Of a stretch of 34,365 nucleotides of DNA, positions 3,552-31,246 are shown in pieces. Numbering within the stretch: position 1 is the stretch's first letter; each line of letters starts with the position of its first letter. The stretch spans positions 1 through 34,365 of IMG/VR virus record IMGVR_UViG_3300009104_000065. One strand, written 5' to 3'. The position numbers were made by a program, and so were the translations under genes. This stretch comes from a virus. The notes beneath the pieces are model-generated. The model did no database searches. It was not told the DNA's origin and saw only the letters and a program-made list of their open reading frames with translations.

Positions 3552-4125
3552 CAGTTTTAAATCGTATGGTGTTTATTTCTAGGTTGTTATCCCATTCGAA
3601 ATATATGTCTATGGCCATTGAATATCGCGGGTCTTGTCCAGTGTTTTCATAAACGGCATGGTCTAAGTCGCAGGTGAATATATGAATATCACCCACCTCA
3701 TTCTCATGCATTCCATAATCCTCATACCATGTTAGATTATATTCACCGCCGAGGAATATATTTGCATTGTAGAACATATGGCGTCTCATGAATTCATGCT
3801 GTACCGTTCTGCCATGATAGTGGAGTAGGAGTTCTTCTCCTACTGATAGCTTATTGCCCCAGCACTGGAGTATCATATATTTCCATTCCCTGAATTCAGG
3901 TAGATTAAATAATCGTTGTTCTATATTGAGGTGTTCGAGTGATTCGTTATATAGCCAGTTGTATACGGGATAGGTTGCAGTGAGCCCTTCGTATCCAGTG
4001 TTCTCACCGCGAGGCACATTGTCCTTATCCTTTTCGAATACGGATATGATATGCTCGCATTCTTCGGGTGTTAAAAATTGTGGATAAGACTTGTGATATC
4101 GTTTATTAGCTGGTGGTCTCGGCAT
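3520..4125 (-). CDS. 2OG-Fe(II) oxygenase-like protein, divergent
   Basis: A 201-residue protein with the order expected of a jelly-roll oxygenase. There is a His-rich segment LLHYHGRTVQHEF (about 100-112), a strand ANIFLGGEYN (121-130), then VGDIHIF and LDHAVY (H156), and R167 in DPRYSM as the possible 2OG-binding Arg. The canonical HxD is absent; H102/H104/H110 could substitute. Activity is therefore less certain than in its neighbours. Its start overlaps the upstream coiled-coil gene by 20 nt, and its 3' end overlaps the convergent plus-strand oxygenase. Confidence 0.5.
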   Translation of the reverse strand: MPRPPANKRYHKSYPQFLTPEECEHIISVFEKDKDNVPRGENTGYEGLTATYPVYNWLYNESLEHLNIEQRLFNLPEFREWKYMILQCWGNKLSVGEELLLHYHGRTVQHEFMRRHMFYNANIFLGGEYNLTWYEDYGMHENEVGDIHIFTCDLDHAVYENTGQDPRYSMAIDIYFEWDNNLEINTIRFKTVKNHLEINSH

Positions 4126-4363
4126 CTTCCCATTCTATATCTGCTTCAAATGCACCGCTATAATCCATTTCTGTATCTACAGTGTATTTCTCATACCCAT
4201 GTTGATTATAGTTCCTAGCATTCTGCCTATTCTCTAATGCAGCCAGCCTATCTTCAATTTGCTCTAGTCTTTCTATAAGGTGTGGAAATCGTGTTGCTTG
4301 CTTCTGCTCAATCTTTTTAATCTTAGTCAATAAGACTCTATTGCTTAATACTGGTGTAGTCAT
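4106..4363 (-). CDS. small coiled-coil protein
   Basis: An 85-residue protein. The N-terminal half is a basic helix leading into a heptad-like segment (IERLEQIEDRLAALENRQ, about 30-47). The C-terminal half is acidic and unstructured-looking. It probably oligomerises. It is linked by ATGA to the upstream 28-residue membrane peptide and overlaps the downstream oxygenase-like gene by 20 nt. Function not recognised. Confidence 0.6.
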   Translation of the reverse strand: MTTPVLSNRVLLTKIKKIEQKQATRFPHLIERLEQIEDRLAALENRQNARNYNQHGYEKYTVDTEMDYSGAFEADIEWEDAETTS

Positions 4364-4446
4364 AGATTTATTTTAAATACTCCTATCATGCTCACTAAAA
4401 ATAAGATAACACTTAATCCAAAGATTATCTTAACTGCTGTGTTCAT
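4360..4446 (-). CDS. tiny single-span membrane peptide (28 aa)
   Basis: A 28-codon gene encoding one hydrophobic helix (about residues 6-23) after a short polar start. Its ATG shares a base with the upstream stop (TAATG at 4444-4448), and its TGA overlaps the next ATG as ATGA (4360-4363), so it exactly fills the space between its neighbours. A near twin in size and arrangement is at 367-453. Role unknown. Confidence 0.6.
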   Translation of the reverse strand: MNTAVKIIFGLSVILFLVSMIGVFKINL

Positions 4447-5342
4447 TATAATACCCACCATCGGAGATATTCGTCTTCTTCAAGATTATCTGTATCTCCT
4501 TCAAAGGTTATCCAACTTGCTTGCCTAGAGATATCTCTATACTCATGTTCCTTGTGAAACAATGCAGATTCTTCGTCACCACCTAGTCCTCTCCAACCAT
4601 AGCCATCTACTGGTGGATTGAAGTGTGGTCTGACATTCTCTTCCCATAGTATATTGCGCTGTTCTTGTTTTTCCCAATCGTTAGGTGCATATGGGATATT
4701 GACACCGTGTGCATGAGCAAGATAAAAGAATTTGGGTTCTAATTCACATTCGAACCATTGCTGAGCACCATATGGTGTGGCGTCATAGTCCTCTATTATT
4801 TGTTCATAGTTATCTTCAAACTCATTATATATCATTCCAGCGGTTGAGGAGGCAACACCAATATAGAAAGGTGACATATCTGATTCTTCATTCCACCAAT
4901 TATCAAACTGCTGAATTGGGTAGAGGTCATTCTCTAATATTAATATTTTATCTTCAGCTGGAATAGATTTAGCAGCGTTTTCTGTTTTTCCTTGTTCAGG
5001 GACGGATTCCATGGACGGCATTGCCATCAAGTCTCGTCCTACTGTGGGCGCATTCAAGACAACTACTTTATTATCTCCATGTAATTGTCGTTTTGCTGCT
5101 TTAAAGCAGTTCATATATGACCAAAACCCTTCAAACTTATCTGCATCATATTCAATGACACGACAATGCCTTTCGAACATGGATTTATCTATGTTGGTTA
5201 ATACGAACAAGTCGACTAACTTAACCCCGTCATGGGTATACCATGTTCTCTGAACGGAGAATGAATCGGATAGTCGATTTACATCATCTACCGACCAACC
5301 ACCTTCTCCACAATATACATAAAAACTAACTACTGCATTCAT
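4446..5342 (-). CDS. hypothetical protein, possibly glycosyltransferase-like
   Basis: A 298-residue protein that I do not recognise with certainty. The N-terminal 125 residues alternate strands and helices (AVVSFYVYCGEGG, DLFVLTNID, NKVVVLNAP), followed by KILILENDLYP, a short acidic motif after a hydrophobic strand like the donor-binding site of GT-A enzymes. The C-terminal third is rich in Trp, Asp and Glu (QQWFECELEPKFF, NDWEKQEQRN). A sugar-transfer role would fit the neighbouring sulfotransferase, but this is inference. AGGAG lies 12 nt before the ATG. Confidence 0.4.
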   Translation of the reverse strand: MNAVVSFYVYCGEGGWSVDDVNRLSDSFSVQRTWYTHDGVKLVDLFVLTNIDKSMFERHCRVIEYDADKFEGFWSYMNCFKAAKRQLHGDNKVVVLNAPTVGRDLMAMPSMESVPEQGKTENAAKSIPAEDKILILENDLYPIQQFDNWWNEESDMSPFYIGVASSTAGMIYNEFEDNYEQIIEDYDATPYGAQQWFECELEPKFFYLAHAHGVNIPYAPNDWEKQEQRNILWEENVRPHFNPPVDGYGWRGLGGDEESALFHKEHEYRDISRQASWITFEGDTDNLEEDEYLRWWVL

Positions 5343-8387: not shown

Positions 8388-9076
8388 TATTTTATCCTCG
8401 GGTAATAGAACATAACTTGTGAGTATCTATAGTTGTCTTTGTATACATTATAATCTGTTATATATGCACCATGCATTTTATTGCCTGTGAATAGAGCTGC
8501 ACGATTAAATTTAGCTGGTATGATATGTTTTAAATCCATCATTTCTTCTACTGGTTGTAGTAATCCCTCTTGTTCCATATTTGGAACCCAACCCGCTTCA
8601 TATACTGCAGTTCCACCATTCTCTTGTTTATCAAGATAGACTAACATATTAATAACTGCTTGATTGTCGGGGTCTTCAAAGTTTCCGTCTATGTGTGGGT
8701 AGTGTTGCAAGTGAGGGTCAAAGACATTAATAGTCTTGAAACAATTAACCTCTATATCATCTCGGTATTCATAGTCTCCTTTCCACCATTTCTCTCTACA
8801 TATTTCAAGGATTCTCTCATTTGCGTTTCTCCATAGTCTTGTAGGGTGTCCTACCTTATCAACTATCCTTGCATCAATATAATCTATTCCATTAGGTGAT
8901 TGTCTTTCTTCATTGTATTTCCATAATGGAATATCTCTTTTGGAGATATGAGCATAGACAGCTTCAGGGTCTTCATAATAATTGTCTATTGTGAAACACT
9001 GTAAATCTTCATGCCATTCAATATCCCATTCCTCTGAAGCTTGCTTGTATAAACTGTCGATACTATAGAAACTCAT
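8387..9076 (-). CDS. 2OG-Fe(II) oxygenase (DUF6445-like)
   Basis: A 229-residue protein with H128-x-D130 in YPHIDG, H202 in KMHGAY and R217 in YRYSQVMFYYP, which completes an oxygenase active site. Strands AVINMLVYLDK and GGTAVYE sit between the ligands. The segment DPEAVYAHI and the overall layout resemble the DUF6445 group (unverified). Its start overlaps the end of the neighbouring oxygenase gene by 14 nt, giving three consecutive oxygenases from 7713 to 9800. Confidence 0.72.
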   Translation of the reverse strand: MSFYSIDSLYKQASEEWDIEWHEDLQCFTIDNYYEDPEAVYAHISKRDIPLWKYNEERQSPNGIDYIDARIVDKVGHPTRLWRNANERILEICREKWWKGDYEYRDDIEVNCFKTINVFDPHLQHYPHIDGNFEDPDNQAVINMLVYLDKQENGGTAVYEAGWVPNMEQEGLLQPVEEMMDLKHIIPAKFNRAALFTGNKMHGAYITDYNVYKDNYRYSQVMFYYPRIK

Positions 9077-9800
9077 ATGACAACTCCGTCCCTTCTTCGT
9101 TATTGTTTATAGGGCTGTTATGTTTTAAGTTAAATGATATTGCAACTCGTCTAAAGTCACCTTCCTCTCGATTGATAGAATGAAATACATTACTCGGCCA
9201 CATAAAACATTCTCCTTGAGTCGGAGTGATTTGTATATCTTGGTGATTGCCCGTTTGTCCTATAGCCACTGTGTTCGGCATATGTTCTTGTTTCATTTCG
9301 TCTCTTTTATGTCCCCAACTAAATTGTGATTGAATATTTGGACTGTGGAAATTTATGGGTTGGCCACCGTCATTCACTGGATAGTATGTTCCACTGACCA
9401 TTGAGTCTTGGTGATTATGTGGTAGGTGGTCGAGGTCTGCTTGCCAAACACTAACCCAAGAGAATAGGTGAATATCATGTCTGCTTAAATTAGAGACTTC
9501 CATATGCCATTGGGATTGAATGAAAGATATGTAAGTATCTTTAACTTGATTTGCAAAATCTTCATACCAAGGAAACTCACACATTTCTTGTCTTTGTTCT
9601 TCAAAGAAATAGGTTGTGTAATATCGTCTTGGGTCGTCTTCGAATTGTTTGATTTTATCAATCAGTGATTCACAATCTTTTGCCACACCTTCATGTGGTA
9701 AAAGAAGACCACCTCTTAAAAAAGGTGTGGGGAATATGTAGTCAACTACATATGAGAATGGTTGAAAACTATTCTCGTTATTGATTATCGGGGGCTTCAT
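9063..9800 (-). CDS. 2OG-Fe(II) oxygenase (2OG-FeII_Oxy_5-like)
   Basis: A 245-residue protein with LPHNHQDSMVSGTYYP (H128/H130, D132), then GECFMWPSNVFHSI (H207) and R218 in FRRVAISFNL. This is the pattern of the 2OG-FeII_Oxy_5 / TIGR02466 group common in marine phages. The N-terminal IFPTPF is also typical of that group. It starts the three-oxygenase run. A CTAAATA motif lies 30 nt upstream of its ATG. Confidence 0.75.
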   Translation of the reverse strand: MKPPIINNENSFQPFSYVVDYIFPTPFLRGGLLLPHEGVAKDCESLIDKIKQFEDDPRRYYTTYFFEEQRQEMCEFPWYEDFANQVKDTYISFIQSQWHMEVSNLSRHDIHLFSWVSVWQADLDHLPHNHQDSMVSGTYYPVNDGGQPINFHSPNIQSQFSWGHKRDEMKQEHMPNTVAIGQTGNHQDIQITPTQGECFMWPSNVFHSINREEGDFRRVAISFNLKHNSPINNNEEGTELSYEFL

Positions 9801-14373: not shown

Positions 14374-14593
14374 CTACATATCTCTCTTTAAGATACTTTT
14401 GCCATAACCAATCAGTATATTTAGCAACATAGGCTTCTCTATCTAATCTATTTGGTGCTGATAATGGGTCGTTGTGTTCGTCACAATAGTCTAACCACAT
14501 TCTTGTGCAGAATGATCTAAACGGTGCTTCTGTTCTATCCACCATGACTTTCGTGACTTGGCCAGATATTTTTGGGTCTACTGCTTGAAACAT
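14360..14593 (-). CDS. conserved small phage protein
   Basis: A 77-residue protein with VDRTEAPFRSFCTRMWLDYCDEHND and REAYVAKYTDWLWQKYLKERY, aromatic-rich helices seen in small marine-phage proteins of unknown function. The ATG at 14591-14593 has GAGG 5 nt upstream. A later ATG (14543-14545) would overlap the glutaredoxin stop by only 11 nt and is the alternative. As annotated it overlaps the glutaredoxin gene by 59 nt, more than its neighbours. Confidence 0.55.
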   Translation of the reverse strand: MFQAVDPKISGQVTKVMVDRTEAPFRSFCTRMWLDYCDEHNDPLSAPNRLDREAYVAKYTDWLWQKYLKERYVGEEI

Positions 14594-14819
14594 TACCCCT
14601 CTTCTCATGCCATTTTCTAAATTCATCATATCCGCCAATGGCTTCACCATTAACTCTTATTTGTGGGAATGTTCTTGCATTAGGGAACTGTTCAAGTAAT
14701 TCCTCTCGTGTAAAATCTTCGTCTAATTGTTTGTATATAAATTGATACCGTTGTGTCTGACACAAGAACTTTGCTTTCTCACAAAATGGACATTGTGGTT
14801 TACCAAATATTTCAATCAT
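14535..14819 (-). CDS. nrdC: glutaredoxin
   Basis: A 94-residue protein beginning MIEIFGKPQCPFCEKAK with the dithiol active site CPFC (10-13), the cis-Pro loop in RTFPQIRVNG and the Gly-Gly site GEAIGGYDEF. This is a complete glutaredoxin fold. It should reduce the ribonucleotide reductase coded a few genes upstream. The ATG is fixed by GGAGG 5 nt upstream. The tail beyond KWHEKRG is longer than usual because the frame runs on into the next gene. The symbol follows T4 usage. Confidence 0.87.
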   Translation of the reverse strand: MIEIFGKPQCPFCEKAKFLCQTQRYQFIYKQLDEDFTREELLEQFPNARTFPQIRVNGEAIGGYDEFRKWHEKRGNVSSSRPKNIWPSHESHGG

Positions 14820-14919
14820 ATTCCCTCCAAAAATCATTTTCGAAGGCAACTTGAATTCCTACATGTATTGCACTATCAACAAGTATTAATACTCCAAACA
14901 TAATCCAACCTGATATCAT
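14812..14919 (-). CDS. tiny membrane protein (35 aa)
   Basis: A 35-residue peptide with a hydrophobic helix (about residues 3-26, WIMFGVLILVDSAIHVGIQVAF) and a charged end NDFWREYD. Its ATG overlaps the upstream stop as ATGA (14916-14919), and it overlaps the glutaredoxin start by 8 nt, so it also carries the glutaredoxin ribosome-binding site. Role unknown. Confidence 0.6.
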   Translation of the reverse strand: MISGWIMFGVLILVDSAIHVGIQVAFENDFWREYD

Positions 14920-15086: not shown

Positions 15087-15353
15087 TTAAAGTTTAATTG
15101 CTAATAGTATGAATATCCCAAGTAGTGTGATTTCAACTAAAAACATTAGGCCAGCAAGAATGGTATGATACCATATCCACCTAGTCGCATATGCATTTTC
15201 TATTGATACTTCATCAGGGTCAGGTGAATATCTGTAAGACGGTTCATCTGTTATATCTCCCATGCCATGTAGTTTCTCTTCTACTTCTTGAATTCTTGTA
15301 ACGAGTTCGTCTTCCTCTTTGCTTCCCCATAATATGTGATACCATTTTTTCAT
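15087..15353 (-). CDS. membrane protein
   Basis: An 88-residue protein with a soluble acidic N-terminal half (EEDELVTRIQEVEEKLHGM, then PDPDEVSIENA) and one hydrophobic span at about 58-86 (WIWYHTILAGLMFLVEITLLGIFILLAI). This is a tail-anchored topology. It overlaps nrdB as ATGA (15350-15353) and so lies in the reductase operon. Function not recognised. Confidence 0.65.
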   Translation of the reverse strand: MKKWYHILWGSKEEDELVTRIQEVEEKLHGMGDITDEPSYRYSPDPDEVSIENAYATRWIWYHTILAGLMFLVEITLLGIFILLAIKL

Positions 15354-16447
15354 AACTTAAAGTCCGTAAATGTGTCGTCATCGACATCTTGTTTAATTCC
15401 ACCAATGACATACGATTCTATTTCGGTCTCTTGTGGTGCGTTCTGTAATCCTCTACTCGTAAACCAATGTTGTGTCCATGGTAAAGGGTTATTAACACTG
15501 GATATATCATAAAGTGGTGATAATCCTAGCATTCTTAGTCTTTTATTTGCAATGTATTCTATATAGTTTCCCAGTAATGGAACTGATAGTCCAATCATTG
15601 AACCGTCTTTGAATAGGAACTCTGCCCATTCTTTCTCTTGTGTTACTGCGTCCTCATACATTTGATAAACTTCTTTCTCACAATCCTTCATAACCTTTGT
15701 CATGAGTTTATCCTTTTCGGTATTTTTATATGCTTTCAGGATATGCTGTGTTATGCCCAAATGTTGGCTCTCGTCTCTCGCTATCAACGAGATAATCTTT
15801 GCACTTCCTTCCATGAGTTTTAACTCACCAAATGCAAATGAACATGCAAAGGATACAAAGAATCTAATACCTTCTAAGATATTAACTGATATCAATGCAA
15901 GGTAAAGTGCCTTATATAAATCATAATCGTCTACTTTAAGGTTCAGTAATTTCCTTCTACCTAGAGCTATGAAATGGTCATACTTTGCAGTCACCATTTC
16001 TGCTCTCTTAACGATTGCCTCTTCTTGTAATATTGTATCAAAGATATCACTTGGGTCTGAATACACATTCTTGATAATGTGTGTATAAGACCTACTGTGT
16101 ATCGTCTCCATAAAGTCCCAAGTGATAATACAAGATTCCAGTTCAGGGAGAGTCACAAAAGGTAGAAATGCTATGCTTGGAGCTCTACCCTGAACGGAAT
16201 CCAGTAAGGTTTGATACCTCAAGTTTGAGGTAAATATATGTTTCTGTGCTTTGTTTAATGTCGTATAATCAGCACGGTCTTTCTGTAAGGACACCTCTTC
16301 GGGTCTCCAAAAGAATCCTAATTGTTTCTGTGTTAGTTTATCAAACACTGGATATTTGAATTCATCAAATCGTTGGGTGTTAAGTGGTTCTCCAAAAAAC
16401 ATTTTCTGTTTCGTGAAGTCTACTTGATTTTTATTAAATACTGTCAT
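15350..16447 (-). CDS. nrdB: ribonucleotide reductase class Ia, small subunit
   Basis: A 365-residue protein with the full di-iron site: D83 in LLDSVQGR, E114 and H117 in METIHSRSY, E192 in LEGIRF, and E226 and H229 in RDESQHL. Y121 is the radical Tyr. The length fits E. coli NrdB (376). It makes and passes the tyrosyl radical to NrdA for NDP reduction. The C-terminal tail, which docks on NrdA, is present (GGIKQDVDDDTFTDFKL). Its ATG shares a base with the stop of the upstream oxygenase gene. Confidence 0.95.
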   Translation of the reverse strand: MTVFNKNQVDFTKQKMFFGEPLNTQRFDEFKYPVFDKLTQKQLGFFWRPEEVSLQKDRADYTTLNKAQKHIFTSNLRYQTLLDSVQGRAPSIAFLPFVTLPELESCIITWDFMETIHSRSYTHIIKNVYSDPSDIFDTILQEEAIVKRAEMVTAKYDHFIALGRRKLLNLKVDDYDLYKALYLALISVNILEGIRFFVSFACSFAFGELKLMEGSAKIISLIARDESQHLGITQHILKAYKNTEKDKLMTKVMKDCEKEVYQMYEDAVTQEKEWAEFLFKDGSMIGLSVPLLGNYIEYIANKRLRMLGLSPLYDISSVNNPLPWTQHWFTSRGLQNAPQETEIESYVIGGIKQDVDDDTFTDFKL

Positions 16448-17520
16448 TATGCTGGTGTCTGTCTCGGGGTTTTAACTATTTCAGCGTTCTTGTGTTGTGT
16501 CTCAAAGATATTGGGGTCGTTTTCTACAACCTTTCCGTCCACTATTTGTTTAAATTCTTGATATCTATTAACGAAATCTGACTTTTGATGCACAGCCCAT
16601 ATTTCTTTATTGTGCCATACATCTGACATTAATTTCTCGTGTGATTTGAATTCCCAACTGTCTACATCTTGAGGGTGATATCTAGACCGTCTTCCATCAA
16701 ATCTACAAGGGAAAACTGGGTCATTTTGTGCTCTAATATGCTGGGGTTGAGTGTCTGCTACTCGGTCTGCGCCAGGCATTGAAAGCATGTTAGTGGTTTT
16801 GTTATAAAAATGTAAAAACATATGATAACTTTCATTACCTAAAAGATACTCTCTCCAGTGTGCAACATTTGGGCCTTGATACATTAATACATCACCAACC
16901 TCTAAATCTATTCTCTTTGCATTCTTTCTTTGTCTAATAGGAACTGCTTGAGTATTTTCCCAAATTTCATTTGGAGTATTAATCCAGTCTTTACTATTAT
17001 CAACCCATATTGGCCATGGTCTATTGTCGTCTGTCTTATAATCTAGACAAATTGTTGCACTGACTTCACATGAAGGTCTATCAGCATGTGCTTTAAGATA
17101 TGCACCTCTTTGATACTTTCTTGTGTACGAATATGTTTCTTGAAGGTTAAGGTCAATTACATCTTTTAATGCTTCCCATAACCACCTATGTAATGCAACA
17201 CCCATAGGTGAACACCACATACCATTTGATTTGTAAAATGAATCCTCGGGAGCTTTTTTATCAATGATTAACTCTTCTAACTCTAAATGTTGTGACATGT
17301 CAGGGTCGAGTTCCATTCTCTTCCATGCGTCCAAAGCCATGTTGATAATGTCTTTAGGAATGAAATCTCTTAATATGACATACCCCTCTTTCATGAATTT
17401 CCATGTTTCGGGATTAGTTGAACCAGCTAATACAGTCCCACCCTTACCTTTCTTAATGTCTTCTGAGATTGCGTTTTCTACAATATACTGTATCGTTCTG
17501 TCTTCAAATTGAACAGGCAT
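16447..17520 (-). CDS. 2OG-Fe(II) oxygenase within the nrd operon
   Basis: A 357-residue protein with LKAHADRPSC (H145, D147), a strand SATICLDY, then GDVLMYQGPNVAHWREY (H221) and YHMFLHFYN. This is the jelly-roll of phage 2OG oxygenases; the 2OG-binding residue is less clear. The C-terminal third (about 250-357, DPVFPCRF.., SDVWHNKEIW) is outside the core. I prefer the ATG at 17518-17520, 6 nt after GAGGAAG, over one at 17544. It overlaps nrdA by 17 nt and nrdB by 1 nt, so it is made with the reductase. The substrate is unknown. Confidence 0.75.
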   Translation of the reverse strand: MPVQFEDRTIQYIVENAISEDIKKGKGGTVLAGSTNPETWKFMKEGYVILRDFIPKDIINMALDAWKRMELDPDMSQHLELEELIIDKKAPEDSFYKSNGMWCSPMGVALHRWLWEALKDVIDLNLQETYSYTRKYQRGAYLKAHADRPSCEVSATICLDYKTDDNRPWPIWVDNSKDWINTPNEIWENTQAVPIRQRKNAKRIDLEVGDVLMYQGPNVAHWREYLLGNESYHMFLHFYNKTTNMLSMPGADRVADTQPQHIRAQNDPVFPCRFDGRRSRYHPQDVDSWEFKSHEKLMSDVWHNKEIWAVHQKSDFVNRYQEFKQIVDGKVVENDPNIFETQHKNAEIVKTPRQTPA

Positions 17521-19807
17521 CGCAGTCTTCCTCACTTTCTTCATTGAATGGGTCTCTAGGTAAATCTTCTAGAACCACATCTTCTACTTTACCGTCCATG
17601 GTGTTTTGGTAATAAGATGTTTTCCACCCATACTTATATGTAGTCAATAAATCTTTTGCCATAATAGATATTGGCACTTCATGATTATCATAGTTTTCGG
17701 GATTATATGACCAGTTTCCGCTGATTGCTTGGTCAAAGAACTTTTGCATGATTGCAACTACTTTTATATAACCATCATTATCTTCCATGTCCCACAACAA
17801 TGTATAAAAGTTTTTTAACATTGAATACTGAGGGACAACTTGTTTAAGGGTTCCTTTTTTACTCTTCTTAACAGACAAGTGGTCTCTAGGTGGTTCTACA
17901 CCATTCGTTGCATTAGAAACGACGCTAGAACTCTCTGACGGCATTTGTGCAGTCAAGGTTGAGTGTCTTACACCATGTTCTTTTATGTCTTTTCTTAAGG
18001 TTTCCCAGTCCATATTGTATACTGGTTTAACTAACTCGTCTACCTCTTGTTTGTATGTGTCTATTGGTAATAGACTGTCTGCATACTTGGTTCTATGGAA
18101 GTATTCACATGCACCTTTCTCTTGTGCAAGTTGATTGCTTGCTTTTAGAAGATAGAATTGGAACCGCTCTGTTAGTTCATGCACCAGTTTTAATGCTTCG
18201 GGGTCGTTATATTTAACCTTGTTTTTTGCAAGGTAATGTGCCAGTCCAATGTATCCTATACCAAGACTTCGTCTTGCTTTAGTAGATACTTCTGCAGCTA
18301 TAACTGGATACTCTTGAAAGTCTATCAGTTCTTCAAGTCCTCTCACTGCTAAGTCACAAAGAGATTCCAGTTCTTCTTCTTTAACAATACCCACATTAAT
18401 TGCACTTAATATACACAATGCAATTTCACCTTCTCCTTCTATATTTTGGATAGGGTCTGTGGGTAATGTTATCTCTTGACAAAGATTACTCATGTTTACT
18501 TTGTCTTTAAAACTACTGTGTGTATTACAGTGGTCTATATTCATAATGTAAATACGGCCAGTCTCTGCTCGTTCTTTTAATAAATCTGTTATGAGTTCTC
18601 TTGCACTAACCTTTTTCTGTGGGATAGAATATGCTCTCTCATACTTTTCATACAATTTGTCAAACTCTTCTGTCCCAAATGCTTCGTATAAGCCGGGCAC
18701 TTCATGAGGTGAGAATAAAGTAATGTCTTCATTCTTTAAGAACCTTTCATAGAAGAGCTTACTGAATTGAATCGAGTAATCAAGTTTCCTAACACGGTTG
18801 TCTTCCGTGCCTTTGTTGTTCTTAAGGACAATAATGTCTTCAATCTCTTGGTGCCAGATTGGGAAGTGGACAGTTGCCGATCCACCTCTAACACCATTCT
18901 GTGTGCAACATCTAACTGTGCTCTCAAATTTTTTAAGGAAAGGGATAAGTCCTGTATGTTGGACTTCTCCACCTCTAATTTTGCTACCAATTCCTCGAAT
19001 TCTTCCTGCGTTAATTCCGATACCCGCTCTCTGCGCAACATATTTTCCAATGGCATGGTCACTTGAGAAGATACTGTCGAGAGTATCGTCTGAATCGACA
19101 AGTACGCAGCTCGCAAATTGTCTAAGTGGTGTTCTAACTCCTGCCATAATTGGCGTCGGTATGTTAATTTTGAATTGACTGATCGCATCATAGTATCTTT
19201 TGACATAATCTAATCTTACCTCTTTGTCATAATTTTGAAATAGAGTCATTGCAATTAGCATATACATAAACTGTGGAGTCTCATAAACTTCTGCAGTTGA
19301 CCTATCTTGAACCAAATACTTGTCTACTATCTGTTGAAGACCAGCATATGTAAAAGTTAAATCTCGTGCATGTTTAATATATGTGTTGCACTTCTCTATC
19401 TCTTCTTTTGTGTATTGATCTAATATATCTTTATCATATACACCCCATTCTATATTTCTCTGTATTATTTCATACAGTGGTGGATAGATTGTATTATCTT
19501 TCCACTTCGTATTAAACACCTGCTTTTGTATTGCAAACAATAAGAGTCTTGCAGCTACAAATTGATAGTTAGGATTGTCTAATGTTATTAAGTCATGTGC
19601 TGACTTAATTAAAATCTGTTGAATTTCTTTTGTGGTTATTCCTTCATAGAATTGAAGACCACTATTCATTTCTATCATTGACTCACTGACACCTGTGATG
19701 TGTCTACATGATTTTTCCACCATTACATGAATTTTATCTAAATTTATTGATACTTTTGACCCGTCTGCTTTGACAACCTTTATTCCACCATTCCCGTTAT
19801 AACTCAT
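17504..19807 (-). CDS. nrdA: ribonucleotide reductase class Ia, large subunit
   Basis: A 767-residue protein, near E. coli NrdA (761). An ATP-cone spans about residues 8-95. The active-site residues are C234 in FASCVLVD, the N-x-C-x-E centre in MSNLCQEITLP (radical Cys), and the second redox Cys in IALCILSAINVG. A C-terminal Cys pair, CDACSI, takes electrons from glutaredoxin. It reduces ribonucleoside diphosphates together with NrdB. It is joined to the primase gene as ATGA, so primase, NrdA, oxygenase and NrdB form one operon. Confidence 0.96.
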   Translation of the reverse strand: MSYNGNGGIKVVKADGSKVSINLDKIHVMVEKSCRHITGVSESMIEMNSGLQFYEGITTKEIQQILIKSAHDLITLDNPNYQFVAARLLLFAIQKQVFNTKWKDNTIYPPLYEIIQRNIEWGVYDKDILDQYTKEEIEKCNTYIKHARDLTFTYAGLQQIVDKYLVQDRSTAEVYETPQFMYMLIAMTLFQNYDKEVRLDYVKRYYDAISQFKINIPTPIMAGVRTPLRQFASCVLVDSDDTLDSIFSSDHAIGKYVAQRAGIGINAGRIRGIGSKIRGGEVQHTGLIPFLKKFESTVRCCTQNGVRGGSATVHFPIWHQEIEDIIVLKNNKGTEDNRVRKLDYSIQFSKLFYERFLKNEDITLFSPHEVPGLYEAFGTEEFDKLYEKYERAYSIPQKKVSARELITDLLKERAETGRIYIMNIDHCNTHSSFKDKVNMSNLCQEITLPTDPIQNIEGEGEIALCILSAINVGIVKEEELESLCDLAVRGLEELIDFQEYPVIAAEVSTKARRSLGIGYIGLAHYLAKNKVKYNDPEALKLVHELTERFQFYLLKASNQLAQEKGACEYFHRTKYADSLLPIDTYKQEVDELVKPVYNMDWETLRKDIKEHGVRHSTLTAQMPSESSSVVSNATNGVEPPRDHLSVKKSKKGTLKQVVPQYSMLKNFYTLLWDMEDNDGYIKVVAIMQKFFDQAISGNWSYNPENYDNHEVPISIMAKDLLTTYKYGWKTSYYQNTMDGKVEDVVLEDLPRDPFNEESEEDCDACSI

Positions 19808-29956: not shown

Positions 29957-31246
29957 CTATTTATCCCCTTTCTTCCTTAATAACATGCGTTCACGCCATT
30001 TCAGTGCAAGTTTGTTTGAGGGAAACTTAGAAGTCCATGTCATTAATTTACCATATAATGTGTTTGCTTTCTTATCTAAAGAAGCTAGGTCATCGTCATT
30101 CTTAATCTCTATGAAATCCTTTTTGAATATAGATTTATATTCGGCTGCATTCTTTTGTGCAGCGTCCCAGTCACCTTTAACAATTTCGGGTGGGAGTTTT
30201 CTTGCACGAAGTTGATTTCTTTTCTGTGCATTGTCGAGACTTGCATTTACAAATACCATTTTGTATTCGTATCCTAACTTATCTAATAGTTTCTTATATC
30301 CTTTAATTTTAGATGATCTTGCACTGGTAGTATCAAAGATTAATCCTAACCTTCCACCAATATAACTTTCTAAACTTTTCTTTGTAATTGCTTTTGCCTT
30401 TGCACGAATTGGGTCACGAAGGGCAGCGTCCATATCTCTTAAATCGAGACTAAGTCCAGCCTTCTTAAGTCCATTCTCAAATGCTTTATCAGTGTTGACC
30501 ATTCTTAGTCCTAGTGCTTTCAGAGCTAACTTCTTAACAACTGCAGATTTACCACTGCCCGGCCCACCTGATAGGAATACTGCTTTGAATATACCTTGGT
30601 CATATACTCCTTCTTTAACTAAGTCTTCTAGGATATATGTGGGTAGGACTCCTTCATTGATTCCCATACCCTTTCTAATTGCTTTGTATAGTGCCTCTTG
30701 GTCTCTCTTATTCTTAGAAGGGACTCCTTGTTTAAAGTTATCAAAGTCATCGTCTTCTGCATATGCTCTCATTTTACTTGCAGACATTCCTGATACATCA
30801 TCTGCGTCAGGGTCACGCTCTCCAGCTGATACAATGTTAATTGATTTGAAGTTATAAAACCCGTGTCTTGCTTTTACATTATTGTATTTTGTTATAAGGT
30901 TCTGAAATTCTTTTACTCTATCTGAACCGACAACCATGTTAATTGAACTATATCCTTTTTCATGTAAGAAATTACAAATGTCAAATACAGTTCTTATAGC
31001 TGAATCATTAATCATAACTTTCTTACCAAAGAACTTCTTAAGATATTTTATCTTGTCTTTGTGTGTAAGAGGATTCTTTTTCTTATCATTAGAATGAGAA
31101 GTAAATAACATAATGTCATCTGCTCTAACCTTTCTTAGTTTCTCTACTAATTTTGCGTGTCCTGTGGTGGGTGGATTAAAGCGACCAAAAGTGAATGTCA
31201 CACTTTTATCTTTTGCTTCTGTTAGCCATTTACCAAATTGTTTCAT
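29957..31246 (-). CDS. nucleotidyltransferase-kinase fusion (NadR-like)
   Basis: A 429-residue protein with two enzyme domains. About 14-200 is a cytidylyltransferase-type domain: GRFNPPTTGH (21-30, the TTGH nucleotide site), VVGSDR and SGMSASKMR (152-160). About 220-400 is a P-loop kinase: GGPGSGKS (227-234). The order matches NadR-like NMN adenylyltransferase/ribosylnicotinamide kinases, so NAD salvage is the best guess. The N-terminus MKQFGKWLTEAK resembles the T4 capsid-targeting leader, and INEG (196-199) between the domains is another possible gp21-type site. Its ribosome-binding site GGAGGG lies in the end of the upstream gene. Confidence 0.72.
   Translation of the reverse strand: MKQFGKWLTEAKDKSVTFTFGRFNPPTTGHAKLVEKLRKVRADDIMLFTSHSNDKKKNPLTHKDKIKYLKKFFGKKVMINDSAIRTVFDICNFLHEKGYSSINMVVGSDRVKEFQNLITKYNNVKARHGFYNFKSINIVSAGERDPDADDVSGMSASKMRAYAEDDDFDNFKQGVPSKNKRDQEALYKAIRKGMGINEGVLPTYILEDLVKEGVYDQGIFKAVFLSGGPGSGKSAVVKKLALKALGLRMVNTDKAFENGLKKAGLSLDLRDMDAALRDPIRAKAKAITKKSLESYIGGRLGLIFDTTSARSSKIKGYKKLLDKLGYEYKMVFVNASLDNAQKRNQLRARKLPPEIVKGDWDAAQKNAAEYKSIFKKDFIEIKNDDDLASLDKKANTLYGKLMTWTSKFPSNKLALKWRERMLLRKKGDK
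29958..29965 (-). promoter_or_regulatory. T4-like late promoter (GATAAATA), leaderless geometry
   Basis: Minus-strand GATAAATA, 5 nt before the ATG at 29952. The TAG stop of the nucleotidyltransferase-kinase gene overlaps its end. Confidence 0.65.

Follow-up and report, generated by a model that had tools for sequence, protein, structure and literature searches.

A predicted Fe(II)/2-oxoglutarate-type oxygenase gene conserved between nrdA and nrdB in a clade of uncultivated T4-like marine phages

The junction between nrdA and nrdB is a described place of insertion in T4-type phages: mobE/Hef endonucleases of these phages lie there, and phage U5 is reported to carry a homing-endonuclease-like gene in place of T4 mobE (PMC3322345). 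Here we describe a gene, X, at the same place in a clade of uncultivated T4-like marine phages; unlike the mobE/Hef cargo, it matches no endonuclease family and is conserved across the whole clade. In the openly readable part of the literature, we found no published description of an oxygenase between nrdA and nrdB.

The closest described relatives of X are the proteins of phrog_2954, or T4-like gene cluster 615, of cyanophages and pelagiphages, which have the same R-x-Y, H-x-D and H-W-R signatures and the same fold. They differ in being mostly about 180-260 residues long (X has 357), in mostly lacking the C-terminal extension and in lying mostly in other neighbourhoods, often beside other oxygenases; two inspected members, of 362 and 453 residues, carry a second domain. 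An earlier table lists cluster 615 as hypothetical and notes a 'ferrochetalase' domain (PMC3037559), and in two further papers phrog_2954-type genes are treated as ferrochelatases that accompany 2OG oxygenases (PMC9599517, PMC11561400). By structure, the predicted fold and HxD...H triad of X are common to the Pseudomonas putida prolyl hydroxylase P4H, which acts on EF-Tu, and to PHD2, although identity is about 10-16% and the position that usually anchors 2OG is not conserved as a basic residue in X. The top structural matches (Z 13.3-14.2) are small-molecule enzymes, SnoN and those of the BesD/HalA type, at a low identity of 8-12%.

The gene and its overlaps with nrdA and nrdB

The window analysed here is the whole 34,365-base virus record IMGVR_UViG_3300009104_000065. 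Its minus strand holds a gene run of primase, nrdA, X, nrdB, a small ORF and glutaredoxin (Table 1), and a glutaredoxin homolog is present in 48 of 51 distinct X-bearing loci. The original prediction, made from the letters alone, had placed an oxygenase gene between nrdA and nrdB, and this was confirmed by an open frame on the minus strand with Pfam-identified neighbours on either side. Gene X runs from an ATG at 17520 to a stop at 16447. An alternative in-frame ATG at 17544 would give 365 residues; we prefer 17520 because GAGGAAG lies 6 nt upstream of it. Elsewhere in the window, a second 2OG oxygenase is encoded at 9063-9800 (PF13759, E 3.5e-13). An ORF at 8387-9076 matches phrog_1644 'minor coat protein', whereas its Pfam matches are DUF6445 (E 2.4e-8) and, short of the cut-off, 2OG-FeII_Oxy_3 (8.5e-5); its product is possibly another oxygenase under a wrong label. 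A single ORF at 29957-31246 encodes a cytidylyltransferase-like part and, after it, an ATPase/kinase-like part (phrog_3041, phrog_12810, phrog_2071).

Table 1. Coordinates of gene X, its neighbours and its sites in the window
Feature	Position	Strand	Basis
nrdA, class I ribonucleotide reductase large subunit	17504..19807	-	PF02867 E 3.5e-136; ATP-cone PF03477
Gene X, Fe(II)/2OG-type oxygenase, 357 aa	16447..17520	-	open frame; phrog_2954 E 1.6e-31; DSBH AlphaFold model
nrdB, ribonucleotide reductase small subunit	15350..16447	-	PF00268 E 6.2e-54
Glutaredoxin, downstream, same gene run	14535..14849	-	PF00462 E 1.8e-12
SD-like GAGGAAG inside nrdA, 6 nt before X start	17527..17533	-	sequence
17-nt nrdA/X overlap; X ATG within codons of NrdA C-terminal Cys-Asp-Ala-Cys tail	17504..17520	-	sequence
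TAATG, one base common to X stop and nrdB start	16445..16449	-	sequence
His145, first Fe ligand of HxD	17086..17088	-	invariant in 52/52 rows of A2
Asp147, second Fe ligand of HxD	17080..17082	-	invariant in 52/52 rows of A2
His221, distal Fe ligand	16858..16860	-	invariant in 52/52 rows of A2
Arg223 of family motif H-W-R	16852..16854	-	invariant in 52/52 rows of A2 and 16/16 rows of A3
C-terminal extension specific to nrd-located X, residues 286-357, N-x-[YF] motif	16447..16665	-	homolog comparison

The overlaps of 17 nt (nrdA/X) and 1 nt (X/nrdB) reported for this locus are real. Of 56 distinct X-bearing nrdA genes, 36 combine an ATG at the position of the 17-nt overlap with an SD-like motif upstream, as against none of 31 X-less ones; these counts are not independent, since the rows are related. 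The pair is missing in the other 20 X-bearing genes. The ATG alone was rejected as proof of a start, since it is found inside the nrdA end in 4 of the 31 X-less genes as well as in 39 of the 56 X-bearing ones, and only ATG plus SD-like motif fully separates the two groups. At the other end, the X frame runs 1-23 nt into nrdB in 43 of 51 distinct loci. Two loci (L026, L030) have the X start 15 nt past nrdA, with X intact on re-reading, and in three others (L024, L087, L078) an additional oxygenase ORF, rather than X, overlaps nrdA. The start signals and the X/nrdB overlaps support translation of X from the overlap, as judged from the sequences.

It had further been argued that coupling implies a pathway shared with the reductase. 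This step was not supported: 20 of the 45 adjacent pairs in the window's chain of 46 minus-strand ORFs overlap (a somewhat overcounted figure, as the starts are mechanical), and X-less phages carry unrelated genes at the same junction. Because overlaps are this frequent in the window, the overlap by itself does not say what X does.

Predicted fold, iron site and the ferrochelatase label

No Pfam model matches gene X at E <= 1. An AlphaFold model built from an alignment of 52 distinct homologs (A2) reached a pLDDT of 89.3 and a pTM of 0.87 and forms the double-stranded beta-helix (DSBH) of Fe(II)/2-oxoglutarate oxygenases. Left out of A2 were a fusion (L050) and a cut copy (L083); L026, L028, L030 and L031, in which the ORF script misread X because a joined BLAST hit extended beyond the X stop, are absent from the 53 distinct X, from the 52-row alignment and from the distinct-X overlap count, and are counted as nrd-flanked. 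The top PDB matches of the model, by Foldseek and by VIA-align, are 2OG oxygenases. The top Foldseek ranks include HygX and the P. putida P4H, alone (E 9.1e-9) and in its EF-Tu complex (2.0e-8). In VIA-align, SnoN (Z 14.2, rmsd 3.6, 209 aligned), a BesD-like hydroxylase (Z 14.0, rmsd 3.5, 202 aligned) and PHD2 (Z 13.4, rmsd 3.5, 189 aligned) are effectively tied. The assignment of X to the Fe(II)/2OG-type oxygenases is thus borne out by the predicted fold and the HxD...H triad.

Several other assignments were considered and rejected. A homing endonuclease is contradicted by the DSBH fold and by the lack of any endonuclease match in Pfam (E <= 1) or PHROGs (E <= 0.01). In BesD/HalD-type 2OG halogenases Gly or Ala replaces the Asp of HxD; X keeps Asp147 in 52/52 rows. 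Matches by phmmer to solved structures (SconeE, uricases) were short or repeat matches and were taken as chance, a profile search of solved-structure sequences with the X family gave no match, and an NCBIfam match to AMP nucleosidase (E 0.065) fell far below cut-off.

The signature HxD...H[WFY]R is present in 170 of 172 family members, the remaining two being L083, which is cut, and L195. In 2OG oxygenases an Arg or Lys about 10 residues past the distal His, on the next strand, usually binds the 2OG carboxylate. In X, this position is not basic: the sole conserved basic residue among residues 226-239 is a His (52 rows of A2). This is the one point in favour of a catalytically dead member of the fold that is used for binding, which we consider very improbable given that the full HxD...H triad is invariant in 52/52 rows. 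Arg223, two residues past the distal His, might serve as co-substrate anchor.

The name most often attached to this family is ferrochelatase. X matches phrog_2954 ('ferrochelatase') at E 1.6e-31, as do all 52 rows of A2, and many GenBank phage records give relatives of X this product name. However, the ferrochelatase profile of Pfam (PF00762) was absent among matches at E <= 1 in three sets: the 52 A2 rows, 16 mixed rows and 28 stand-alone phrog_2954 members. The stand-alone members came from viral contigs (28 aligned of 57 extracted ORFs) and all 28 match phrog_2954. The model obtained from these members (pLDDT 93.0) again has the DSBH oxygenase fold, with SnoN as best match (Z 17.3, rmsd 3.5, 184 aligned) and the P. 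putida P4H as third (Z 16.5, rmsd 3.0, 161 aligned). That ferrochelatase is missing from the listed structural matches is no proof, and it is the sequence-profile test that carries this point. Some records (S-SCSM1, S-SCSM2R, S-CREM1) already name a relative a 2OG-Fe(II) oxygenase. That X is a ferrochelatase is, with both models folding as DSBH oxygenases, hardly credible. Because the stand-alone relatives have the oxygenase fold and triad, the label looks wrong for phrog_2954 members in general (L230, L212-L275 and the phage records), which on the models appear to be oxygenases. We found no published description of this mislabel in the openly readable part of the literature. ORFs of the HxDRPxCE/HWR oxygenase family also occur on four contigs titled as bacterial MAGs (L177, L188, L191, L196).

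A C-terminal part outside the core fold had also been pointed out, and this holds in part. The tail after the D-x-R motif is specific to nrd-located X: of 70 nrd-located homologs 64 have N-x-[YF], as do 4 of the 96 others, and the median length after the core is 88 residues versus 27. The D-x-R motif itself (275-277 in X) is common to the wider family, in 65/70 nrd-located homologs and 83/96 others. In the model, residues 241-330 have block-mean pLDDT values of 86-97; pLDDT is low for residues 340-357 and for a loop around 21-30.

Gene order, phylogeny and other cargo at the junction

A scan with X-derived patterns, blind to position, yielded 76 viral loci, near-copies included, with 50 distinct X by the ORF script. 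Conservation of gene order had been set beforehand as a check, and the orthologs keep it: in 74 of the 76 loci nrdA lies directly or one gene upstream of X and nrdB downstream, on the same strand. The two exceptions are L083, whose contig ends inside X, and L081, where a short ortholog of 231 residues (3968-4663) lies elsewhere, with no nrd gene in its flanks and a PF13640 oxygenase ~1 kb downstream. A search without positive control gave no nrdB match in the 64.7-kb L081 record, which may be incomplete. Since this ortholog lies away from nrd, the position of X is not obligatory. The order nrdA-X-nrdB also occurs in L174, L198-L211 and L277-L280, contigs that are partly the same. Part of this conservation, in order as in start signals, is due to common descent, since the nrd-located rows are related and some are near-identical.

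Seen from nrdB, 11 of the 80 loci listed among 600 pattern matches carry X, all with nrdB identity of at least 73%; the remaining 69 listed loci, at identities up to 69%, have no X match at E 1e-4. This comparison misses known X-bearing loci. A wider scan for the X core (80 listed of 587, with flanks of up to 4 kb, shorter on small contigs) found nrd genes absent from the flanks of 64 core-only homologs (L212-L275) among the matches listed. X matches 144 of 50,697 phage records; every one of these matches covers less than 80% of X and is below 60% identity. Many of those listed are ACG-2014f strains, one of which is among the 12 records inspected; it has nrdA and nrdB ~2 kb away. Eleven of the 12 are annotated, and the other ten of these have no nrd gene annotated in the stretch; tblastn of the stretch in the unannotated twelfth revealed no nrd gene either. 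There is one X match per record in 6 nrd-located records of 82-151 kb. The observation named beforehand as refuting, a gene at unrelated loci in most relatives, does not hold for orthologs and is true only of distant relatives: at ~24-40% core identity, most of them have the gene elsewhere.

In a quick tree of core sequences from 149 of the 172 family members, a tree with long branches, the nrd label changes 2 times, against a shuffled mean of 46.2. The clade of all 58 nrd rows includes one other row, that of L081 (SH-aLRT 97). Left out were L083, L178 and L195 by name, L184, L190 and L192 as too short, and 17 duplicates. This topology is compatible with the nrd position having been gained once and left once, by L081.

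The nrdA-nrdB junction attracts oxygenases, but other genes too. A PF13640 oxygenase lies between nrdA and X in L024 (2802-3383) and L087 (1431-2006), and a PF13759 oxygenase in L078 (3201-3917); in X-less L111 an HxD-type ORF with a weak PF13759 match (1658-2185) lies between nrdA and nrdB. Other X-less phages have at this place ribosomal protein L7/L12 (L112:2316-2687, PF00542 E 3e-16), a Bax-inhibitor-1 homolog (L133:3643-4323, Bax1-I E 1.1e-50), an arginyl-transferase-like (ATE_C-like) gene (L113:4250-4999, E 2.8e-5) or a weakly kinase-like gene (L097, E 0.019, below cut-off). The genes downstream of nrdB vary; in two relatives nrdB is followed by a cytochrome c gene, a redox gene in the reductase run (L003:4046-4489, PF00034 E 6.4e-8; L005:7075-7518, 3.8e-9). 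L050 (4001-5770) encodes a fusion of X with a class I methyltransferase-like domain (PF00398 E 1.5e-5, PrmA 1.3e-4), and this fusion still overlaps nrdB by 4 nt at its end.

These observations bear on whether X is a passenger, serving some unrelated host-takeover task at a junction that is simply a landing site, with its order kept only by descent. The unrelated genes of X-less relatives, the endonuclease-like gene reported in phage U5 (PMC3322345), the frequent overlaps in the window and the single gain on the tree are all in keeping with this. However, among the matches listed X is never replaced, being present in 11/11 loci with nrdB identity of at least 73%; it is kept while the genes downstream of nrdB vary, and X-bearing phages alone have the start signals within nrdA. 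We regard the passenger explanation as a real possibility that falls short of being probable.

Selection on X and its relation to ribonucleotide reductase

X is under purifying selection, yet changes faster than its neighbours, as estimated from sequence pairs: one pair gave a dN/dS of 0.28 for X and 0.07 for primase, nrdA and nrdB, and a second gave 0.16 for X and 0.03 for nrdB. The X values are thus about 4 and 5.5 times those of nrdB. Because the frame is under selection and the gene order recurs, gene X is more than a chance open frame. Across 24 loci, of the 52 rows, its mean protein distance is 3.7 times that of NrdB; the core is its slowest part, and change is fastest at residues 246-270 and beyond residue 286. 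Spearman correlations of distances in these loci were 0.61 for X-NrdB, 0.69 for X-NrdA and 0.82 for NrdA-NrdB.

Such rates are unlike those of a tight partner, and they weigh against the proposal that X serves ribonucleotide reductase directly, by hydroxylating NrdA, NrdB or a nucleotide, or by managing iron or O2 near the di-iron subunit. Its fixed place and overlapping frames, the entry of other oxygenases into the junction (L024, L087, L078 and the weakly matched L111) and the downstream glutaredoxin homolog would suit this role, as would distances that track NrdB and NrdA, though shared descent alone would produce the latter too. On the other hand, the NrdA-NrdB distances correlate better, a similar reductase is present in X-less phages, and, in records that may be incomplete, PF00303 (thymidylate synthase family) was found in 0 of 10, namely 9 X-bearing ones (53-151 kb, none known to be complete) and X-less L098, and PF02511 in 0 of the 9 X-bearing ones. 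This absence speaks weakly against DNA modification. We consider a direct role of this kind unlikely. The residues that differ between X-bearing and X-less phages in NrdB (7 positions) and NrdA (10) were tried as candidate targets of X; they look like lineage divergence, and none of them stood out as a target.

The explanation we favour, at a probability of roughly 0.6, is that X is an oxygenase or hydroxylase recruited once and co-translated with ribonucleotide reductase. X would be a true non-heme oxygenase of the Fe(II)/2-oxoglutarate type, with a predicted fold like that of prolyl hydroxylases. It would have entered the nrdA-nrdB junction once, in an ancestor of a single clade of uncultivated T4-like marine phages. 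There it would have gained its longer C-terminal part and start signals inside the nrdA end, and it would be translated with both reductase subunits while the phage makes deoxynucleotides. We infer that X is an active enzyme that uses 2OG and O2 to hydroxylate a substrate, and that its translation is coupled. Given the nearest folds, we think that this substrate may most likely be a protein side chain or a small molecule, and less likely a DNA base.

Taken together, these results indicate that X is a lineage-fixed oxygenase, probably active and probably co-translated. A stronger form, which we find decidedly improbable, would make it a dedicated third component of the phage ribonucleotide reductase operon, a hydroxylase modifying NrdA, NrdB or a nucleotide; the X-methyltransferase-like fusion in L050 would fit a two-step modification of this type. 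If that were true, X would make the phage reductase differ from that of its host through post-translational or substrate-level control, and to our knowledge control of ribonucleotide reductase by such a hydroxylase is known nowhere else. For the wider family, the published readings of phrog_2954 genes as ferrochelatase auxiliary genes, as given in PMC9599517 and PMC11561400, deserve revisiting. Finally, 2OG oxygenases belong to the common unexplained genes of marine phages, and the X subfamily between nrdA and nrdB provides a concrete, testable context for one of them.
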